Assembly (NCBI RefSeq): GCF_900095385.1
Contig: NZ_FMID01000042.1
Span: 1 to 51,775 of the forward strand
Direction of reading: 5' to 3'
Source: Methanoculleus chikugoensis
Lineage (GTDB): Archaea; Halobacteriota; Methanomicrobia; Methanomicrobiales; Methanoculleaceae
Length of the DNA: 51,775 bases
The notes beneath the pieces are model-generated. The model did not search any database. It saw only the letters and a list, made by a program, of their open reading frames with translations, and had not been told where the DNA came from. The stretch's first letter is position 1. Every line of letters starts with the position of its first letter. The position numbers and the translations under genes are program-made. Positions 22,285-31,629 of this stretch are shown here, one piece after another.

Positions 22285-23493
22285 CTATGTCACTATGAGT
22301 TTATCCTGTTTGGTCGCCCGCTTCACCCGGAGGACTTCCATCGCCGCCGCTTCCACGGTGTTCCGGTGCTCCTCTACGGTGTAGACGCCGAGGCGCCACT
22401 GCTGCCGCCGGGTGTCGTTCAAGGTATTGATGAGGGGGGAGACCTCCTCGATATCGACCATCGCGTGGCTGTTCCTGACCCGGACCTCCATCGAGAGCGC
22501 CCGGGGGAGCGGGGGGATGTCGACCAGGACTTCGTCTTCGATGATCCCGGCGGCCTCGGCGATCTCGCGGGCGATATCCCGCTCCCGGGCGGGGCCGAGG
22601 TCCTGCCGGAGGGCTGCGGCGTTCACCCGGTCTTCGCCGATATACAGCGCCCGCTTGTAGAGGTCGCGGGCGTAGACCCGGCGGGCGAGGTCGCGGGTAA
22701 TTTCGCAGGAAGAGTGCTTCAGCCGCTCCATGCAGGCGGCGTCGTCCATCCGCATCAGTTCGTGTGCGTCCGTGCCCGGGACGTTCCGCACCTCCTCGCG
22801 GAGGGCGTGGACGAACATGCTCGTCGCGATCCGGCTCACGTGGTGGAAGTAGACCGCCGGGCGCATCAGCGTCCGGGCTATGAGGAGCGACTCGGCGGCG
22901 TTGATCCCGCCTTCGTGCAGGGCGATGCCCGATTCGGTGAAGATAGTGCTCCGGATCAGCCGGTGTGCGTCGACCGTCCCGTAGGGGACGCCGGTGTAGT
23001 GGGCGTCCCGCATCAGGTAGTCCATCCGGTCGACGTCCAGGCTGCCGTGGATGATGCTCGCGAGGCGGTGCTTCCCCGCAACGACGGCGCAGACCTCGGC
23101 GGGGTCGAGCCCTTCGCCTTCGAGGATCGCGGCGGTCTCACCCTCGCGGATGAGGTGGTCGATCTCGTGGTGACTCCTCCCCGTGAACTCCTCCATCACC
23201 GGCTCGGTGACGTGGGAGAAGGGGCCGTGGCCGATGTCGTGGAGGAGGGCGGCCGTGGTGACGAGCCGCGTCTCACCGTCGTCGAGCCCGAGCTGGCCCG
23301 AGATCAGGCCCGCGAGGTGCATCGTCCCGAGCGAGTGCTCGAACCGGCTGTGGTTCGCCCCGGGGTAGACGAGGTTCGCAAACCCGAGCTGGGTGACGTG
23401 GCGGAGCCGCTGGACAACCTCCGAGTCGAGCAGCCGGAGCGCGAGCGGTTCCGCCTCGACGTAGCCGTGCACCGGATCTTTGATGATCTTCAT
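22285..23493 (-). CDS. HD-domain phosphohydrolase (SAMHD1/dGTPase-like)
   Basis: 402 residues. HD metal ligands: His53 (RFEHSLG), His85-Asp86 (LLHDIGHGPFSH), and Asp153 or Asp155 (LDVDRMDYLMRD). The opening KIIKDPVHGYVEAEPLALRLLD is the archaeal/bacterial relative of SAMHD1, which includes dNTP triphosphohydrolases. Substrate cannot be told from sequence. It heads the operon ubiX-ubiD-AcnX with a 12-base spacing; a functional link to isoprenoid synthesis is not known. A TATA-like CCTTTATC lies near 23528-23535, about 35 bases from ATG 23493. Confidence 0.88.
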   Translation of the reverse strand: MKIIKDPVHGYVEAEPLALRLLDSEVVQRLRHVTQLGFANLVYPGANHSRFEHSLGTMHLAGLISGQLGLDDGETRLVTTAALLHDIGHGPFSHVTEPVMEEFTGRSHHEIDHLIREGETAAILEGEGLDPAEVCAVVAGKHRLASIIHGSLDVDRMDYLMRDAHYTGVPYGTVDAHRLIRSTIFTESGIALHEGGINAAESLLIARTLMRPAVYFHHVSRIATSMFVHALREEVRNVPGTDAHELMRMDDAACMERLKHSSCEITRDLARRVYARDLYKRALYIGEDRVNAAALRQDLGPARERDIAREIAEAAGIIEDEVLVDIPPLPRALSMEVRVRNSHAMVDIEEVSPLINTLNDTRRQQWRLGVYTVEEHRNTVEAAAMEVLRVKRATKQDKLIVT

Positions 23494-23569
23494 CGGTTCT
23501 GTTAAGAATCTTGGGAGATGGAAGATAAAGGTATTTGAAGGCGCGCGGCGTGCGGGGCGGTTTTCTTTT

Positions 23570-23660
23570 GGGGGGAGCGGGGTGTGGGTGTGGGGGTGGA
23601 GCGTTCAGGCGGCGGGGTAGGACGCTCCGGCAGGAAAAGGCCGCATAGATAAATTATGCG
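23570..23660. repeat. G-quadruplex-like tract and two hairpins at the island border
   Basis: Plus-strand G runs at 23570-23596 (six, four, three and five or more Gs split by 3-base linkers) fit the G3+N1-7 quadruplex pattern. A hairpin GGAGCGT/ACGCTCC follows (23598-23628), then CGCATA/TATGCG around a GATAAAT loop (23642-23660). The stretch 23494-23790 holds no gene; it separates the GC-rich HD operon from the AT-richer island. Confidence 0.6.
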
Positions 23661-23790
23661 TTCTGTGGATGATCTGTGATGAGTCCCCCCTCAAAACACG
23701 GTTGGTTTGCCTTTTTTCGAGATTAATGACCATAAGTTCATTTCGTTACCTTAAAGGAGGTGTACAAGGAGTCAGATTATGTGAATAACT

Positions 23791-25434
23791 ATGCCAAAGT
23801 TTTGTCCCGAGTGCGGGACGCCGTTACAAAGCATTAATGCAAAGTTTTGCCCTGAGTGCGGCACCGGACTGATACAGGGAACGCTGACACCCATTGCCAC
23901 CGCCGGAACCCAGATCCAACCCTCTACAGACGATGACTGGTCAAAGCCTATCGACTGGTCGGAAGAGGAATACCCGGAAGAAGTTACCCCGTCACCCGTG
24001 AACGCCTACGAGCTTGGGACGAAGCTGGAAGAGATTGTCGATTCAATTTACCAAGCGGAGGGCTACAAGACCGAACGGCGGGTCAGGATGCCCGGGCAAG
24101 GCGGCTATACAAACGAGATCGATGTCATCGCTAGGAGAAGGAAAGAGCAGGTCGCTATCGAGTGCAAGAATTTTACATCCGCAGTCGGCATCAAAGAGAT
24201 CCGGGACTTCTCCAAGAAACTTGATGACCTCGGTCCTGGCTGGCGTGGTGTCTTCGCCGCTTTCAACGACTTCACGCTTGATGCCCAGAACTTCGCAGAG
24301 AGCAGGAACATCGAGACCCTCGGTCACGAAGACATCATGGAAAAGTGGTTCGCTGTCTCTGCCGGCAGAGTCAGCCGGCAGGGAGAGCGACTGACGTTAA
24401 GATCCGCTCTGTCTATCAAGTCCGATTACCTCATGGTGACGACATTGCCGCTGCAAAACAAACATCTGGTCGAGGTAAGCAGCGCCCGGCTTACTTTCCA
24501 TCCCTACGTCAAAGTCCCGTATACCTTCAAAGCCCGGGTCTACGATCCGACCAAGAAGCTTCATAGGTTTTCCGACGACGGGACGGTCGTCATCGATCTG
24601 CTCGACGGCAAGGTGCTCAACAAGCAGGCCAAGAAAGGGGGTTCCATCTTAAACTCCCTGAGTTCCTCGAAGCAGAGCGCCGACAATGTTCAAACGCTCA
24701 AGACCTTCAGGGAAGTGATGGACTTCTCGCCCTCCCCTGAATACTCCATAACGATCGGTTCAGACTATCAGATCACCGAACTGAAACCCGAAGTTACCAA
24801 GCGTACGGTAGAGAGAGCGACAATCGAATACATCACGGCAAGGAATACTCAGGACATGGCGTATACCCCTGCAAAAGGGGATGTCATTCTGGACATAAGA
24901 CACCGAAAGTTCGTGCCGCGAAGGAGCGACATAAAACTCTTCAAGAGTGAAATGGTTCTGGTCCCCAAATGGGCGATTTATTTCAACGCGTTCGGCACAA
25001 TTTACACGAAAGAAGTCTTCGCTCACTCCGGGACCGTCCTTGAGAATACCATCCAGTACTGCCCGCAGCACTTCAAGCTCGGTGCCATCAACGTCAAGAA
25101 AGAGACCACTGCCGTATGTGAGGTTTGCGGCAAGGCCTATTGCAGTGAGCACATCTCTCAATGTCCTGTCTGCGGGAGATGGGTCTGTAGCGATCACGCT
25201 TCGGTCTGCAGTTCATGTGGCAAGACGTTCTGCAAAGAGCATGCGAGTAAGATCTGTCGGGGGTGCCACCAGCCGCTCTGCTCCGATTGCGAGGTCGAAT
25301 GTCCGATCTGTCACAAGCCATACGGAGCGAACCATACCCTGATCTGCGATAAGTGCGGGGCGGCCGTCTGTCCGAGTTGTATCACGACATCGGGGTTACT
25401 GCGGAAGACGAGAATATGTAAGAACTGCCAATAA
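23791..25434 (+). CDS. Zinc-ribbon Mrr-like endonuclease with C-terminal zinc-finger array
   Basis: 547 residues. It opens with two zinc ribbons (FCPECGTPL at 4-12 and FCPECGTGL at 19-27), then a Mrr-type PD-(D/E)xK nuclease domain at about 72-185: Glu80 in the first helix, Asp111 (NEIDVIA), then Glu124-x-Lys126 (VAIECKNF). A middle beta-rich region (about 200-415) is unrecognised. The last 120 residues hold a run of CxxC/CxxH pairs (about seven treble-clef or B-box-like units, CEVCGKAYCSEH and so on). Mrr-like nucleases cut modified or foreign DNA. Base composition is lower in GC than the core. It stands alone with no methylase; a nearby ATG 23791 follows GGAGG 30 bases upstream. Confidence 0.82.
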   Translation: MPKFCPECGTPLQSINAKFCPECGTGLIQGTLTPIATAGTQIQPSTDDDWSKPIDWSEEEYPEEVTPSPVNAYELGTKLEEIVDSIYQAEGYKTERRVRMPGQGGYTNEIDVIARRRKEQVAIECKNFTSAVGIKEIRDFSKKLDDLGPGWRGVFAAFNDFTLDAQNFAESRNIETLGHEDIMEKWFAVSAGRVSRQGERLTLRSALSIKSDYLMVTTLPLQNKHLVEVSSARLTFHPYVKVPYTFKARVYDPTKKLHRFSDDGTVVIDLLDGKVLNKQAKKGGSILNSLSSSKQSADNVQTLKTFREVMDFSPSPEYSITIGSDYQITELKPEVTKRTVERATIEYITARNTQDMAYTPAKGDVILDIRHRKFVPRRSDIKLFKSEMVLVPKWAIYFNAFGTIYTKEVFAHSGTVLENTIQYCPQHFKLGAINVKKETTAVCEVCGKAYCSEHISQCPVCGRWVCSDHASVCSSCGKTFCKEHASKICRGCHQPLCSDCEVECPICHKPYGANHTLICDKCGAAVCPSCITTSGLLRKTRICKNCQ

Positions 25435-25470
25435 TTTTTAGACCTGAATTTTAGGGATGATATCGAAGTA

Positions 25471-25617
25471 TTAGAATAGTTTGTCCAACTTCTTTTCAAG
25501 AAAACTCTCTATATCCGTCGTATAGGCCAGCAACAGAACTGCACACTTCTTATCGACAGGTTCCCACCACGCACAACCTTCACGGAGACATTCTGCCTTA
25601 ATCAGGGGACAAAGCAT
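25471..25617 (-). CDS. Small Cys-rich protein, possibly broken by an in-frame TAG
   Basis: A 48-codon frame from ATG 25617 reads MLCPLIKAECLREGCAWW, then DKKCAVLLL and an amphipathic C-terminal helix (IESFLEKKLDKLF). The coding frame visibly continues upstream (TWERLSARKLTPC), adding another Cys to make a CxxCP...C...C zinc-binding pattern, and reaches ATG 25677, but the third codon from there is TAG (25669-25671). So either the gene starts at the inner ATG, or it is a recent nonsense mutant. Compact Cys-Trp proteins like this occur in archaeal mobile elements; function unknown. Confidence 0.5.
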   Translation of the reverse strand: MLCPLIKAECLREGCAWWEPVDKKCAVLLLAYTTDIESFLEKKLDKLF

Positions 25618-25677
25618 ACAGGGCGTCAGCTTACGGGCCGATAAACGTTCCCAAGTTAATTTACTCTTCTAATTCAT

Positions 25678-25985
25678 TTTGGGCCAGCTCCGGCTTCCGA
25701 TGCATCCGCGCCTGCAACTTACAAATACTGCCCCCTAATTTCCCAGTACACCCAGACTCTGGATGGATGCCTCCCAGACCAGCACCGCAACGCTGACTGC
25801 TTACAACCACATCGGGTCAGTGAGGCAGTACAGCCCGATACCGATTGCGATCACCGGAGGCTAAGTTCGGGGATGAGGATGGAGAGTTCGGGCTTCTAGG
25901 TTATAGTTACCTGCTGGCCTGTCATGATGCAGGGTTGCGGCGGGAGAGAGAAAAAAGGGTTGCAGAAAGGATGTAGAATAAATTA
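25678..25985. other. Gene-free stretch in the island
   Basis: No convincing gene on either strand. A short plus-strand frame (about 25762-25863, M-D-A-S-Q-T then YNHIGSVRQYSP) is coding-like but only 33 codons and lacks a promoter; it may be the tail of a lost gene. Confidence 0.4.
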
Positions 25986-26609
25986 TTATAGATTAAAACT
26001 TGAGACAACCATCTCTTCTGTATATAATACGTCATTACTAGAATTATATTCTAACTTCACTTTTATGTTGGATAATGCATAGAGGTCACATAATTTGTAA
26101 CCTGCCACTTTCCAGTATTTCTCCCTCTCTTCCCGAATATCCCAAGCAATTACTAAGTGCCTAGCGTCGGAGTCAATTTTGGTTCCTGTGCTATAATAAA
26201 AAGAACGAAGACCATTATCCCAGTTCTTGCTGACAACTTTAGACTCCAGATATGTTACTCTCCCGAAAGCATCAACAACTTTCATGTCTGGATAGCCAGA
26301 TTTTTTTAATTGAGTTGGCTTCAACGTTGTTTTTTTCAATTCTTCCACAAAAACTTCTTCAAACTGTTTACCAACATCATTTGGTCTTTCACCGTGATAT
26401 CGAGTCCTAGTTCTGTCGATATAGCGTATAAAGTTACGAGCAGCCTTTTCTAACTCATTAAAAAGAACTAAATCATCGGGATTATTCCCAGGATCTAACT
26501 TTTCTACTTTGAAACCGGTTGTTCCTTCAACTAGGTCCGGGAAAGCAACTTTTCCAGATATCTGGGCAACCATAGAATGTAATTCCTGAAAAGAGGGGAT
26601 TTTGGTCAT
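25986..26609 (-). CDS. Type II restriction endonuclease (PD-(D/E)xK), partner of the adjacent methylase
   Basis: 207 residues. A PD-(D/E)xK core is visible: Pro107-Asp108 (SGYPDMKVV), then Glu122-Ser-Lys124 (VTYLESKVV) on the next strand. The rest is unlike families I can name. It starts 16 bases after the stop of a DNA methyltransferase on the same strand, the standard layout of a type II restriction-modification pair, so it should cut the sequence the methylase protects. Start ATG 26609; TTG 26612 is adjacent. AT-rich codon use marks it as acquired. Cleavage sequence unknown. Confidence 0.78.
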   Translation of the reverse strand: MTKIPSFQELHSMVAQISGKVAFPDLVEGTTGFKVEKLDPGNNPDDLVLFNELEKAARNFIRYIDRTRTRYHGERPNDVGKQFEEVFVEELKKTTLKPTQLKKSGYPDMKVVDAFGRVTYLESKVVSKNWDNGLRSFYYSTGTKIDSDARHLVIAWDIREEREKYWKVAGYKLCDLYALSNIKVKLEYNSSNDVLYTEEMVVSSFNL

Positions 26610-26625
26610 CAATAGACCATATTAG

Positions 26626-27489
26626 TTAACTGGCTAAAAAGCTTTCTCCTGAGTTGCTTTCAGTTTTGATGCCTCCACATGGTATACGAGCGTTTGCAAT
26701 ATCTATGTAGGTCGGATCTATTTCAAAGCCGATATAGTTGACACCTAGTCTGGCACATGCAACTGCGGTTGTCCCTATGCCCATGAACGGATCTAAAACC
26801 AAGCTTGTGCGGTCAAGCCCGTGATCCAGAATGCACATCTCAGGTAATTTTGTTGGAAACACCGCTGGATGCGGTCGTGAATCTTGTATTGTTTCATAGG
26901 GGATGAACCATGTATTACCCCGGTCTCGCTTATCTGAGCCATTAGGAGATTTCCATCGTTTAATGTTGCTCTTATCTTGGTATGGAACACCAATCGCAAT
27001 TTTATCGAGCTTTACAGTGCCCGTTTTGGTAAAGTGGAAAATAAACTCATGACAGTCATGATGAAATCTCTGGCTGTTGACTGGCTTATAGTGACCAACG
27101 GCGATGTCCTTATCGAACTTCGCATATTTTTTAACCTGCTCCCCAGGTATGGCAATAGACTTTATCCAGTGAATCATATTTTGCAGGGCAAACAAATCTT
27201 CGAATGCAAGAGCGACTTTCATCGGGATCCAGGGATTTGTGAGCGTCCCTCCAATGTTTAGGAAAAAAGACCCGTCATCCTTCATCACCCGTTTGCACTC
27301 GATTGCAACTTTATGCAGCCAATCGAGATATTCCTGCTCGGATTTTTTATCTTCATAGGTATTATATTGGATGCCGATGTTATACGGCGGTGATGTCACA
27401 ATAACGTCTACAGAGTTATCCTTCATTTTCTTTAGTCCTGCTAAACAATCCATTTGATATATCCTATTTACTTCGGTGATCTCAGTCAT
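26626..27489 (-). CDS. Type II DNA methyltransferase (beta class, likely N4-cytosine)
   Basis: 287 residues. The catalytic motif [10 protein letters not shown] (about 33-40) precedes the SAM-binding motif [18 protein letters not shown] (about 232-248), the beta-class order. SPPY is most often seen in N4-cytosine enzymes, though N6-adenine is possible. Near motif [20 protein letters not shown] is motif II. It modifies host DNA so that the adjacent nuclease spares it. Upstream 35 bases away lies a small DUF2080 gene on the same strand. Confidence 0.92.
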
Positions 27490-27524
27490 AACCTGCTCCC
27501 TGCATTTTTCTGTTAAAATACGCC

Positions 27525-27689
27525 TTACTCTGTAGTTGGGTCACTGGTAACAGGATCCAATAAGATTATTTTCACTCGCTTCCCTACCCAGTCGACTGGC
27601 ACGTACACCCTACCCGAGTTTCCAGAATTTTTTACAGTTTTCTCTAATATTTGGAATCCGTTTATTTTTATTTCCATTTGTTCGTTCAT
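27525..27689 (-). CDS. DUF2080-family small protein
   Basis: 54 residues from ATG 27689. The motif [20 protein letters not shown] followed by VKIILL is the DUF2080 signature, described in databases as transposon-encoded or transposase-associated. The pattern also recalls AbrB-like swapped-hairpin regulators (GNSGRVYVP). No transposase is near. It lies 35 bases upstream of the methylase, same strand, behind a TATA box with an inverted repeat, so it may be the first gene of the restriction-modification operon and could act as its regulator. That role is inference. Confidence 0.8.
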
Positions 27690-27708
27690 AAATTCAAATT
27701 GTAGCCAT

Positions 27709-27735
27709 ACAATAAATACATTGTGCTATTATATA
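27709..27735 (-). promoter_or_regulatory. TATA box with inverted repeat before DUF2080 and R-M genes
   Basis: Minus-strand TATA element TATATAATAG (27726-27735), then an inverted repeat ACAAT-N6-ATTGT (27709-27724) just before the expected transcript start near 27705. An outer pair AATTGT (27698-27703) and ACAATT (27739-27744) brackets both. This layout suits a repressor site controlling the DUF2080-methylase-nuclease unit. Confidence 0.55.
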
Positions 27736-27977
27736 GCCACAATTAGGTTAATAATCTTCTACTATCTTGAGAGAAAGTTGTTTTGGAATCAGGGGATAGA
27801 ATTGACCTAGCCCTAGTTTTGAGCATGTATTATTCTACCTACTGGAGTGTGCATACTGCTTCCCAATCACGGCAGCGCCATGACCATGACCCAAGTGAGT
27901 TGAGGTCCCAGTCAGTCAGATGCGAAAAGATGCAATAGTATTAGATGGTATTGGAATGATTTGGGATGAATTATAAT

Positions 27978-27994
27978 ACAGTGTGATACACTGT
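27978..27994. repeat. Palindrome ACAGTGT-gat-ACACTGT
   Basis: Perfect 7-bp arms with a 3-base spacer, followed at once by a half copy (TTACAGTG). It adjoins an AT-rich TATAAT run. Looks like a dimeric protein-binding site; the nearest plus-strand gene is the small membrane protein at 28258. Confidence 0.5.
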
Positions 27995-28129
27995 GTTACA
28001 GTGGGTTAAATTGGATTAAGAGGCACTAAATGGCTTATTTTCGACATCGTCGGCGACAAGAATATATATGCTGACAAGCTAATTAGAATTACAATCAATA
28101 GGGGGTGTCAGAAGAGTCTGAAACGAGAT

Positions 28130-28170
28130 GATCAGAGATGGACGATGTTCGCGCATCAGTCCATCTGATC
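28130..28170. repeat. 41-base hairpin in the island
   Basis: Arms GATCAG..ATGGAC..GATG and CATC..GTCCAT..CTGATC pair around a TTCGCG loop with small bulges. It is not next to a gene stop, so it is not an ordinary terminator; it could be a structured RNA, a replication or transposition signal. Confidence 0.5.
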
Positions 28171-28227
28171 AAATCTCCTAAATAGATGCAATTTCACCAA
28201 TTGCTATATCTATTCTAGGCGTTTTGG

Positions 28228-28236
28228 TATAAAAAA
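28228..28236 (+). promoter_or_regulatory. TATA box of the small membrane protein gene
   Basis: TATAAAAAA 22-30 bases before ATG 28258, predicting a leaderless or very short-leader transcript and supporting the plus strand as the coding one. Confidence 0.55.
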
Positions 28237-28257
28237 GTAGCGCAAATTGAGCAAAAA

Positions 28258-28434
28258 ATGCCGGAGGTTAAAACCTTGATTGGTACGATAATCGCCCTCA
28301 TCGTAATGGGCGCCATTATCGCATCCATCCCGGTGCTTAAAGATGCAGGAGAAGCTATCGTCGCACTTGGCGTACTTGGCTTCGCCTGCTTAATTGCTGG
28401 GATGATCATTGATGCAACAAGTGGAATTGCATGA
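28258..28434 (+). CDS. 58-residue two-helix membrane protein
   Basis: MPEVKTLIGTIIALIVMG begins the first hydrophobic helix (about 6-26); a short charged turn (LKDAGEA) leads to a second helix (about 34-53, IVALGVLGFACLIAGMIID). No known domain. The good TATA box at 28228 and balanced codon use support it over the antisense frame. Its place in a cluster of defence and toxin genes allows a role as a toxin, a membrane effector or a viral remnant, none of which can be shown from sequence. Confidence 0.6.
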   Translation: MPEVKTLIGTIIALIVMGAIIASIPVLKDAGEAIVALGVLGFACLIAGMIIDATSGIA

Positions 28435-28509
28435 GGGGAACTAAATCATAAAAACTCAACTCTTTTTTCCCCCTCAAAAATTCCCTGAATCAATCGGACT
28501 TTTGGTCTG

Positions 28510-28923
28510 TTACACGCCACCAATGCCAAGGACACCAGCAAGTTTTTTCCGAATCTCTATCAGATCATCTTTCTCAAGGGTGAATCTATAATTTCCATTG
28601 AAATATTCCCGGTTTATTGTGAAGATTTGCTCGCATTTTACAACTGTATCATGTTCCAGCTCAGGATATTTTCGTGCTTCAAGGAGGTAATGATAGAATG
28701 ACCGCATTACTCCTTTGTCGTTATCCCAGTGATCATCCAGCCGGAAAGAGGTCATTGGAACACAAATAATCGTCAGGTGCCGCGGTCGGGAAACGATCCT
28801 GGGGTTCATGACAACAGCAACAAAATGAGCCTTTTTGATCGTATTTGGTGAAACTCCTGTGTGCGCTGTGAGATCAAAAAAATGGACTGAACCAGGACCA
28901 ATGGGAGATGGTGATGAATGCAA
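28510..28923 (-). CDS. MazF/PemK-like toxin
   Basis: 137 residues. The layout resembles PemK/MazF-type mRNA interferases: GSVHFFDLT at the start, HFVAVVMNPRIVS, LTIICVPMTSF, then VVKCEQIFTINREYF and a C-terminal helix IEIRKKLAGVLG. Catalytic residues cannot be fixed by eye. The gene begins 2 bases after the stop of a Panacea-domain gene on the same strand, the usual spacing of a toxin-antitoxin pair. AT-rich. Expected to cleave RNA when released from its antitoxin. Confidence 0.72.
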   Translation of the reverse strand: MHSSPSPIGPGSVHFFDLTAHTGVSPNTIKKAHFVAVVMNPRIVSRPRHLTIICVPMTSFRLDDHWDNDKGVMRSFYHYLLEARKYPELEHDTVVKCEQIFTINREYFNGNYRFTLEKDDLIEIRKKLAGVLGIGGV

Positions 28924-28925
28924 AC

Positions 28926-29525
28926 TTATTCCTCTTTCAATGCAGCCATCTGTAATTCGTGGATATATTCAGGCACTCTATCCTCGTAACCATCATCCAT
29001 GTTCATCTCTAACTGACAGACACACTCAATTGCCTCTTGGTAATCAATGAAGGAGCAAAACTCATCCATCTCGTAGTCACTCAGCTCAAATTCTTCAATT
29101 GGAATCTGATCCATCTTTCCATGGTTCTTCCAGAGTGCCATACGGTGCGTGATCTCGCTGATCTCTTCAGTGTGATATGCTTTGAGTAGTCTTATGATTT
29201 TATCAAACAACTCCCTTTCCTCATCGGAGAACAAAGAGCGATTGCATTGCTGCTTTGGATGATATGTATACTTTGTTCGCTCTTCGTCGATCTGCTCGAC
29301 ACAAACATCATATTGCGGCTGAGTTGCTCCAGAGACCTCGAAAGCATGCGCGGGAACTGGCCCTGCTTTCATTCTGATGTATTCATCGTCCAGTAATGTG
29401 TTGCCGTAGTTGTTATAGTGGATAAGATCTGTGAAGAACACGAACTTCATTAATTTTGTTCTTCCAATGTCTGGGTACTCCTCCATTGCGTAAAGGAGTG
29501 CGTTTAACCTTTTCACCCTCTCCAT
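28926..29525 (-). CDS. Panacea-domain antitoxin
   Basis: 199 residues from ATG 29525 (AGAGGG ten bases upstream; GTG 29534 is less well placed). The Panacea (SocA-like, DUF4065) pattern is clear: RLNALLYAMEEYPDIGRTKLMKFVFFTDLIHYNNYG, split here at the motif TKLMKFVFFTDLIHY, then DDEYIRMKAGPVP. Panacea antitoxins neutralise many unrelated toxins; the adjacent toxin here is MazF-like. A TATA-rich, nearly palindromic stretch (AATACTATATAATATT, 29579-29594) lies upstream and may be the autoregulated promoter. Confidence 0.85.
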   Translation of the reverse strand: MERVKRLNALLYAMEEYPDIGRTKLMKFVFFTDLIHYNNYGNTLLDDEYIRMKAGPVPAHAFEVSGATQPQYDVCVEQIDEERTKYTYHPKQQCNRSLFSDEERELFDKIIRLLKAYHTEEISEITHRMALWKNHGKMDQIPIEEFELSDYEMDEFCSFIDYQEAIECVCQLEMNMDDGYEDRVPEYIHELQMAALKEE

Positions 29526-29750
29526 GATCAGCACGCCCTCTGTCTGAACGCCTCAATGGATATTTGAGTCTATAATGTAATACTATATAATATTTGATAT
29601 TATTGCCCGCGTTGCTCATCCCTGTTCGCTATAACGACACGGATTCTTTACACGATAGCATTGCTTTTCTGCTTCATACCGTATGCATCCCCACCACAGC
29701 AAATGAAACTCTTAACCCCCCGGACACCCCACCTACAATAACATTCAGCC

Positions 29751-30653
29751 ATGATCACCTTCCTCTCCGGCGGATCCGGGACCCTCCCGCTCATCCGGGG
29801 CGTCCGCCAGATCCTCTACGACAGCGAGATCGCCGTGGTCGCGAATACCGCCGAGGATCTCTGGATATCGGGGGGCCACTGTGCGCCGGATATCGACACC
29901 GCCGTCTTCCTCTTTGCCGGCATCCTCGACACCGGCCGGTGGTGGGGGATCAAGGGCGACACCTACGCCACCCATAACTACCTCCCGAAGGTGGCGGGCG
30001 GCGAACCCTTCCCGGTCGGCGACCGTGCCCGGGCCGTCCAGATCGCCCGGGCGGCGCTCCTCCGGGAGGGGCTGACCCTGACCGAGGCGGTCGAGCGCCA
30101 GTGCCGCTCGCTCAAGATCGGGGCGACCGCCCTCCCGATGACCGACGGCGACGCCGCCCTCTTCGTCGATACCGGTACCGAACGGATCCCGCTCCTCGAG
30201 TACCGGATGGCCGCCGACCCCGGGACCGAAGTCCGGGAACTCGTCGGGCCCGAACCGCCGGCGGTCACGGACAGGGTGCGGGCGGCGATCGAGGCGAGCG
30301 ACGCCGTCGTGATCGGCCCCGCGAACCCGGCGGCGAGCATCCTCCCCATCCTCGACTGCGCCGGGATGCGGGACCTCCTCCGCGATGCGTTCGTCGTCGC
30401 GGTCTCGCCGTTTCGGGGCGGCGCCGCGCCCGACCCAAAGGACGCCGCCCTCATGTACGCCGTCGGCGAACCCCCCACGTCGCCGGCGGTCTCCCGGCTG
30501 TATGGGGATATCGTCGACGTCTTCGTCCAGGACATCCACGACCCGGACGACGTCCCCGGATCGCTCCGCCTGGAGACGCGTCTGATGCACGAACGGCAGG
30601 CCGAATCGCTCGCCTGGGACATCACGGCGGTCATACGGCACGCGATTTCGTGA
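29751..30653 (+). CDS. Diverged CofD paralogue
   Basis: 300 residues, the same length as the CofD gene that follows. It keeps the fold markers ([59 protein letters not shown]) but changes key loops: the nucleotide-binding GTPKLL is GTLPLI, SPDIDT is APDIDT, and the conserved PVSGPA loop is APDPKD. So it probably transfers a different phospho-ester group, acts on another deazaflavin, or has lost transferase activity. No frameshift is present and GC is core-like, so it is maintained. Its start lies at the end of the AT-rich island. Confidence 0.85.
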   Translation: MITFLSGGSGTLPLIRGVRQILYDSEIAVVANTAEDLWISGGHCAPDIDTAVFLFAGILDTGRWWGIKGDTYATHNYLPKVAGGEPFPVGDRARAVQIARAALLREGLTLTEAVERQCRSLKIGATALPMTDGDAALFVDTGTERIPLLEYRMAADPGTEVRELVGPEPPAVTDRVRAAIEASDAVVIGPANPAASILPILDCAGMRDLLRDAFVVAVSPFRGGAAPDPKDAALMYAVGEPPTSPAVSRLYGDIVDVFVQDIHDPDDVPGSLRLETRLMHERQAESLAWDITAVIRHAIS

Positions 30654-30692
30654 AATTGGGGCATTGACCCCCGGACAAAGTTTGGGAAAATT

Positions 30693-30700
30693 CATATACG
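30693..30700 (+). promoter_or_regulatory. TATA box of cofD
   Basis: CATATACG 27-34 bases before ATG 30727, suggesting that the canonical cofD has its own short-leader promoter rather than depending on the upstream paralogue. Confidence 0.45.
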
Positions 30701-30726: not shown

Positions 30727-31629
30727 ATGATAACCTTCCTCTCGGGCGGGACCGGAACCCCGAAACTCCTCCGCGGGATGCGGGAGTTGCTGGACGAGCG
30801 GGATATCGCGGTCGTCGTCAACACGGCCGAGGACACCTGGCTCTCCGGCAACCACCTCTCGCCCGACATCGACACGGTCATGTACCTCTTTGCGGGCATC
30901 CTCGACACCAACCGGTGGTGGGGGATCCGCAATGACTCCTACGTCACCCACGACCTCCTCGCACGGCTCGGCATCGACGAGTACATCGCCGTCGGCGACC
31001 AGGACAGGGCGGTTCACGCCGCACGGGGCGAGATGCTCCGGAGCGGCATGCGGCTGACGGAGATAACCCGCACACTCTGCCGCACGCTCGACGTCCGGGC
31101 GACCGTTCTCCCGATGACCGACTCCGTCGTGACGACCTGCGTCCGGACGGCCAGGGGCGAGATGCACTTCCAGGAGTACTGGGTGAAGCACCGCGGCGAC
31201 ATGGCGATCGACGGCGTCGTCCGGAAGTTCGATGCGCCGCCGGTCGCGACCTCCGAGGTGATCGATGCGATCGAGGGAAGCGACGCCGTCGTGATCGGGC
31301 CGAGCAACCCCGTCACGAGCATATCCCCGATCCTCGAGTGCACCGGGGTGCGGGAGGCGCTCCGCCGGCAGCACGTCATCGTCGTCAGCCCGTTCATCGG
31401 CGATGCGCCGGTCAGCGGCCCGGCGGCCGCCCTGATGCGAGCGTTCGGAAAAGAGCCCTCGTCCGCCGGAACCTACGCTCTCTACGAGGACTTCGTGGAC
31501 GTCTTCATCCAGGACACCCGCGACCCGGTCGAACTCGAAGGGGCGCTCCGCCAGGACACCCTCATGGTCAACCGGGGCAAGAGCCTCGACCTTGCAAAGA
31601 GTATCCTGACCCTGATCTACGGGTGCTGA
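30727..31629 (+). CDS. cofD: 2-phospho-L-lactate transferase CofD
   Basis: 300 residues. CofD joins a phospholactate (or related) moiety to the deazaflavin Fo, making F420-0, the methanogen hydride carrier. Conserved segments: [66 protein letters not shown] and [17 protein letters not shown]. It follows a diverged copy 73 bases upstream. Its stop is 9 bases from the convergent iscU stop. Confidence 0.93.

Follow-up and report, generated by a model that had tools for sequence, protein, structure and literature searches.

What does a methanogen gain from a 547-residue protein in which the fold of a restriction nuclease is combined with zinc-binding modules, and what does the position of its gene in the chromosome say about that role? 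The question is raised by a locus in the window analyzed here (i.e., the whole stretch of 51,775 nucleotides of contig NZ_FMID01000042.1 from Methanoculleus chikugoensis), and the features discussed below are collected in Table 1.

Gene and protein architecture

Sequence comparison indicates that the open reading frame is a genuine gene: it is far beyond chance because homologues with 34-48% identity occur in other families and orders and the dN/dS is about 0.12 overall in close pairs, the mark of purifying selection. About 16 archaeal genomes, including those of Methanoculleus and Candidatus Syntrophoarchaeum, yielded homologues with identities of 34-100%; these were 77-100% in three other genomes in the first relatives search and 34-85% elsewhere. 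The distribution is patchy, with a full or partial copy in 14 of 232 genomes of the order, and one copy cut by a contig end (G058) has the array directly after the Mrr domain, with the middle absent. No homologue was found in the viral contigs and phages searched, and the plasmids searched gave partial matches only.

An unusual architecture had been claimed from the sequence-only reading of this locus, and the searches bear this out. No entry of Pfam, NCBIfam, or PADLOC spans the whole protein, and a literature search, incomplete in its coverage, found no description of a zinc ribbon, Mrr domain, middle, and zinc array in this arrangement. The whole protein matched no defence system in PADLOC, where weak matches of the Mrr domain to ZorD and CARF-PDDEXK were the only ones, and neither the middle nor the C-terminus gave a Pfam match above cut-off.

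The nuclease assignment made in that reading is upheld by the Mrr_cat domain, whose score of 49.7 bits is more than twice the Pfam cut-off of 21, and by a conserved active site. D111, E124, and K126, named there as the PD-(D/E)xK residues, are kept together with E80, E109, and N127 in 11 of 12 homologues, and the domain has a dN/dS of 0.03-0.10 in close pairs. AlphaFold2 models were built on three sequences with a mean pLDDT of 68-69 (about 80 in the Mrr domain, about 90 in most of the array, and mixed, partly below 50, in the middle). Foldseek placed the Mrr part closest to 1y88 (AF1548; E 2.9e-7), followed by MspJI, Cdn1, Can2, and EndoMS, all nucleases or nuclease-fold proteins, with Bax1 also among the neighbours; a weak match to Hjc came from the Pfam search.

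Table 1 Coordinates of the features in the window
Feature	Position	Strand	Evidence
Left hotspot flank, HD-domain gene	22285-23493	-	Pfam HD / HD_assoc_2; in 33 of 35 congeners
Cargo of variable hotspot between HD gene and CofD-like gene	23494-29750		Empty sites, GC
Mismatch-free stretch relative to genome G024	23581-29774		6.2 kb
CDS, 547 aa (zinc ribbon, Mrr nuclease, beta-rich middle, zinc array)	23791-25434	+	
Single N-terminal zinc ribbon, C5/C8/C20/C23	23803-23859	+	Pfam Zn_Ribbon_1 E 1.6e-6
Mrr_cat PD-(D/E)xK domain, residues 77-182	24019-24336	+	Pfam PF04471 E 4.9e-13, Foldseek
Active-site codons D111 (24121), E124 (24160), K126 (24166)	24121-24168	+	11 of 12 homologues
Beta-rich middle, residues 196-420, homologous to archaeal pseudo-Mrr family	24376-25050	+	hhalign
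C-terminal zinc array, residues 424-546, period CxxC-x4-CxxH-x3	25060-25428	+	Ligand conservation, model
Type II restriction enzyme	25986-26612	-	PADLOC REase_II E 1.5e-14
Type II DNA methyltransferase	26626-27489	-	Pfam N6_N4_Mtase E 6e-51; PADLOC MTase_II 1.4e-118
PemK-like toxin (28510-28923) and SocA/Panacea antitoxin-like gene (28926-29534)	28510-29534	-	Pfam
Right hotspot flank, CofD-like gene	29751-30653	+	Pfam CofD E 4.6e-27

Two zinc ribbons had been proposed for the N-terminus, which has four cysteines and therefore makes one ribbon (Zn_Ribbon_1, residues 4-27); its ligands are kept in 12 of 12 homologues, except C20, which is kept in 11. The C-terminal array of about seven Cys/His units was read correctly, as it contains 13 Cys/His pairs plus H515, predicted to bind about seven zincs, and the ligands are near-invariant (25 of 27 in all 12 homologues; H484 and H515 in 11 of 12). 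Comparison of the array with RING and PHD domains gave weak sequence matches in Pfam (zf-RING_2, 0.029; FYVE, 0.46) and non-significant fold matches to HOIL-1 and PHD (E 0.48 or more).

One homologue, from Methanoculleus sp. FWC-SCC1 (L026; same locus as L046, 9899-11347), has all six active-site residues replaced, and it is the only member to have lost them. None of its array ligands has been lost, and its identity to the window protein is 72% in the array vs 52% in the Mrr domain. Because such a protein retains all array ligands, the array probably has a binding job of its own. Loss of the active site among homologues had been named as evidence against a restriction factor, and such loss did occur, throughout the site, in this one protein, while the residues were conserved in the other eleven.

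The middle region and a conserved archaeal pseudonuclease family

The middle had been described as beta-rich and unknown. As described, residues 200-415 belong to no Pfam family, and Foldseek on the AlphaFold2 model gave no significant PDB fold match for the middle plus array; "unknown" goes too far, since the region has colinear homology to a widespread archaeal family (A7). When the two families were compared by hhalign, residues 77-420 were colinear with a probability of 99% (E 4.6e-18), and this profile comparison rules out an orphan domain. Proteins of the A7 family are 330-420 aa long and have an Mrr-like domain with a middle of the same type behind it; unlike the window family, they have lost E124 and K126, have neither zinc module, and are broadly rather than patchily distributed. 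Of the 295 genomes of the phylum, 117 encode an A7-type protein; every one of the 55 listed for this order does so, as does the genome of the window itself (G000:C62). A broadly conserved protein of this pseudo-Mrr plus middle build can be seen at L155 (4086-5038) and in the A7 alignment. No name for the family was found in Pfam or NCBIfam; PepSY gave weak Pfam matches in seven of 12 A7 members (best E 0.0014) and no match above the Pfam cut-off in the middle domain of the window protein.

By this kinship the window gene is a patchily distributed relative of a conserved archaeal pseudonuclease, one that has the catalytic residues and carries zinc modules besides. A third form (L022, in G038) has an active-looking Mrr domain (QxK), a middle, a few zinc pairs, and a hydrophobic C-terminus. 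It is colinear with the window family over the Mrr domain, middle, and first zinc units (hhalign 97.7%, E 1.7e-12) and resembles PDC-S02 / mREase_IV in PADLOC, whereas its C-terminus is apparently membrane-spanning and the full array is absent. The core and middle thus occur in A7 without an active site and in L022 with an active-looking one, so they are an old unit that is used both with and without the active site.

A variable hotspot, its cargo, and the neighbours of homologues

We measured the interval from the HD-domain gene to the CofD-like gene in the window (23494-29750) and at loci L138-L154. In ten congeners the interval is 45-47 bp, i.e., the site is empty, and in 17 genomes including this one it is filled with 1.4-7.1 kb. 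The island here comprises the 547-aa nuclease gene, a type II restriction-modification (R-M) system, and a PemK/Panacea pair. The nuclease gene has a GC content of 0.51-0.54 and the segment with the R-M and toxin-antitoxin genes one of 0.37-0.43, vs about 0.65 in the flanks. An apparent 316-aa gene at 29745-30695 on the minus strand was rejected as an antisense frame of the CofD-like gene, with stop codons in relatives; the CofD-like gene itself is followed in tandem by a second one (30727-31629, plus strand).

By sequence comparison, the whole island is recently exchanged between species, because it has zero mismatches to G024 while the flanks have diverged by about 12% (roughly 30 differences per 250 bp). 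Although the window genome and G024 are both drafts, the assembly continues in each case from the island into a diverged flank of its own. A further genome, assembled as one contig (G019), carries a homologue of 94% identity at this site, followed by different cargo. Cargo at the hotspot elsewhere includes a strong PD-Lambda-1 match (E 8.9e-145) with a TnpB-like gene (G016), a weak TnsA-like endonuclease match (G003), a TPR protein (G005), and a radical SAM gene (G030); much of the cargo lies outside known defence, and some insertions are GC-rich. The defence-type location expected of a restriction factor is supported by the placement of the gene as hotspot cargo beside R-M and toxin-antitoxin genes and by the recent inter-species exchange.

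The surroundings of homologues lean to defence, yet are mixed. A convergent DNA methyltransferase, 48% identical to that in the window, lies about 20 bp from the homologue in G138, and an NB-ARC/TPR protein is near the one in G097. In G194 and G196 a NERD-domain gene, 90% identical between them, lies 36-37 bp downstream; the homologue and NERD-domain gene form a two-gene unit (L057, 8973-11624; L058, 9442-12094) in mostly different surroundings. Other homologues adjoin an AP_endonuc_2-type gene (G054), an N-formylglutamate amidohydrolase gene (G062), or glycosyl hydrolase and alpha/beta hydrolase genes (G096). Housekeeping surroundings had been named as what would speak against a restriction factor, and several homologues do adjoin ordinary genes, while others stand in a defence-type context. 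In G019 and most other homologues examined, the R-M genes of the window island are absent.

Possible functions and comparison with known systems

We favor, at roughly even odds (probability about 0.5), an accessory, single-protein restriction or defence nuclease, for which we infer DNA cleavage, a defence role, target reading by the array, and a role for the middle domain. The Mrr-type PD-(D/E)xK domain would cut nucleic acid, most likely DNA, in a metal-dependent manner, with D111, E124, and K126 holding the metal and water. The zinc array, probably together with the N-terminal ribbon, would bind and select the target or a partner protein. In the sequence-only reading, the array could recognize nucleic acid or a protein mark, so that the protein might restrict modified DNA. 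The middle, which may descend along with the nuclease core from an archaeal ancestor of Mrr-plus-middle build, would probably keep the protein together as an oligomer or transmit activation, and the gene would travel as chromosomal-hotspot cargo alongside other defence genes. Several points weigh against this reading, namely the ordinary neighbours, the non-defence cargo, the lack of a whole-protein PADLOC match, the loss of the active site in L026, and the widespread A7 relative, which is inactive by sequence.

Some of these observations would suit a regulator or scaffold derived from the pseudo-Mrr family, with the array binding a partner (protein or nucleic acid) and cleavage secondary or dispensable. 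The core is colinear with the family lacking E124 and K126 that every one of the 55 genomes listed for the order encodes, and the homologue without its six active-site residues has kept its array ligands and diverged less in the array than in the Mrr domain. We consider such a role unlikely all the same, as 11 of 12 members have an intact active site that is under strong purifying selection, and the gene is scattered as hotspot cargo instead of being conserved. More doubtful is an accessory nuclease of DNA repair or recombination, acting on branched or damaged DNA: EndoMS and Bax1 are among the Foldseek neighbours and Hjc gives its weak match, but the spread is sparse, the exchange was with R-M and toxin-antitoxin genes, and no repair operon was seen. 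That the protein works with the neighbouring type II R-M system, as its partner or as a second nuclease, sensing or acting on its methylation, we regard as very improbable; the R-M genes do share the exchanged island, and the homologue in G138 does converge on a related methyltransferase, yet the association is not fixed because G019 and most examined homologues are without these R-M genes.

A defence nuclease of the favored kind would be an accessory, exchanged protein linked to a conserved, apparently unnamed archaeal pseudonuclease family, and with this link it can therefore be asked whether the pseudonuclease arose from a defence protein or gave rise to one. The Methanoculleus hotspot is also a place to look for further defence genes.

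Pfam has no model for the kind of zinc-array module that turns up alongside Mrr-fold proteins in two groups of archaea. In haloarchaea, a block common to plasmid pHTIA (L091, 2069-8105) and G405 (L158, 5324-11354) is a candidate undescribed defence cassette. It contains an SNF2 helicase (best PADLOC match DrmD, 2.1e-78), an array protein of 1096 aa with about 70 Cys/His pairs and no Pfam match, and an Mrr_cat protein in which the usual ExK is missing. The window and haloarchaeal arrays score 153.3 against each other vs a maximum of 39.4 for shuffles with Cys/His fixed, which speaks against mere Cys/His spacing as the source of the likeness, with the caveat that such shuffles also destroy general zinc-knuckle preferences; homology of the two arrays is likely, not proven. 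The cassette resembles the window protein in its CxxC-x4-CxxH-x3 repeat and in the Mrr_cat protein nearby, and differs in that the array is on its own polypeptide, a DrmD-like helicase is present, and the Mrr fold lacks the usual E and K. We offer as a speculation of low probability that this array reads a target or partner as the module of an undescribed archaeal kind of defence, where it is paired with Mrr-fold proteins, fused in methanogens and split into helicase, array, and Mrr-fold proteins in haloarchaea.

Among known systems, Zorya ZorD (an SNF2 helicase with an Mrr-like nuclease, encoded in zorABCD) aligns with the window protein in the Mrr part alone (E 9.7e-5), and Pfam found no helicase domain in the latter; likewise, AF1548 (1y88) aligns in its nuclease-fold part alone. 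A survey of archaeal R-M systems reported an E. coli Mrr-like type IV enzyme as persistent in Methanosarcina and did not mention zinc (PMC10609329). With Mrr / Mrr_cat (PF04471) type IV nucleases the window protein shares the PD-(D/E)xK core, the D, E, and K residues, and the Glu of the N-terminal helix. It differs in lacking a match to the Mrr N-terminal domain and in having the zinc modules and middle added; PADLOC gave no mREase_IV match, and Pfam found Mrr_cat only, not full-length Mrr. Based on these sequence features, we file the protein as an Mrr-type nuclease of new architecture, apart from the methyl-dependent Mrr enzymes.
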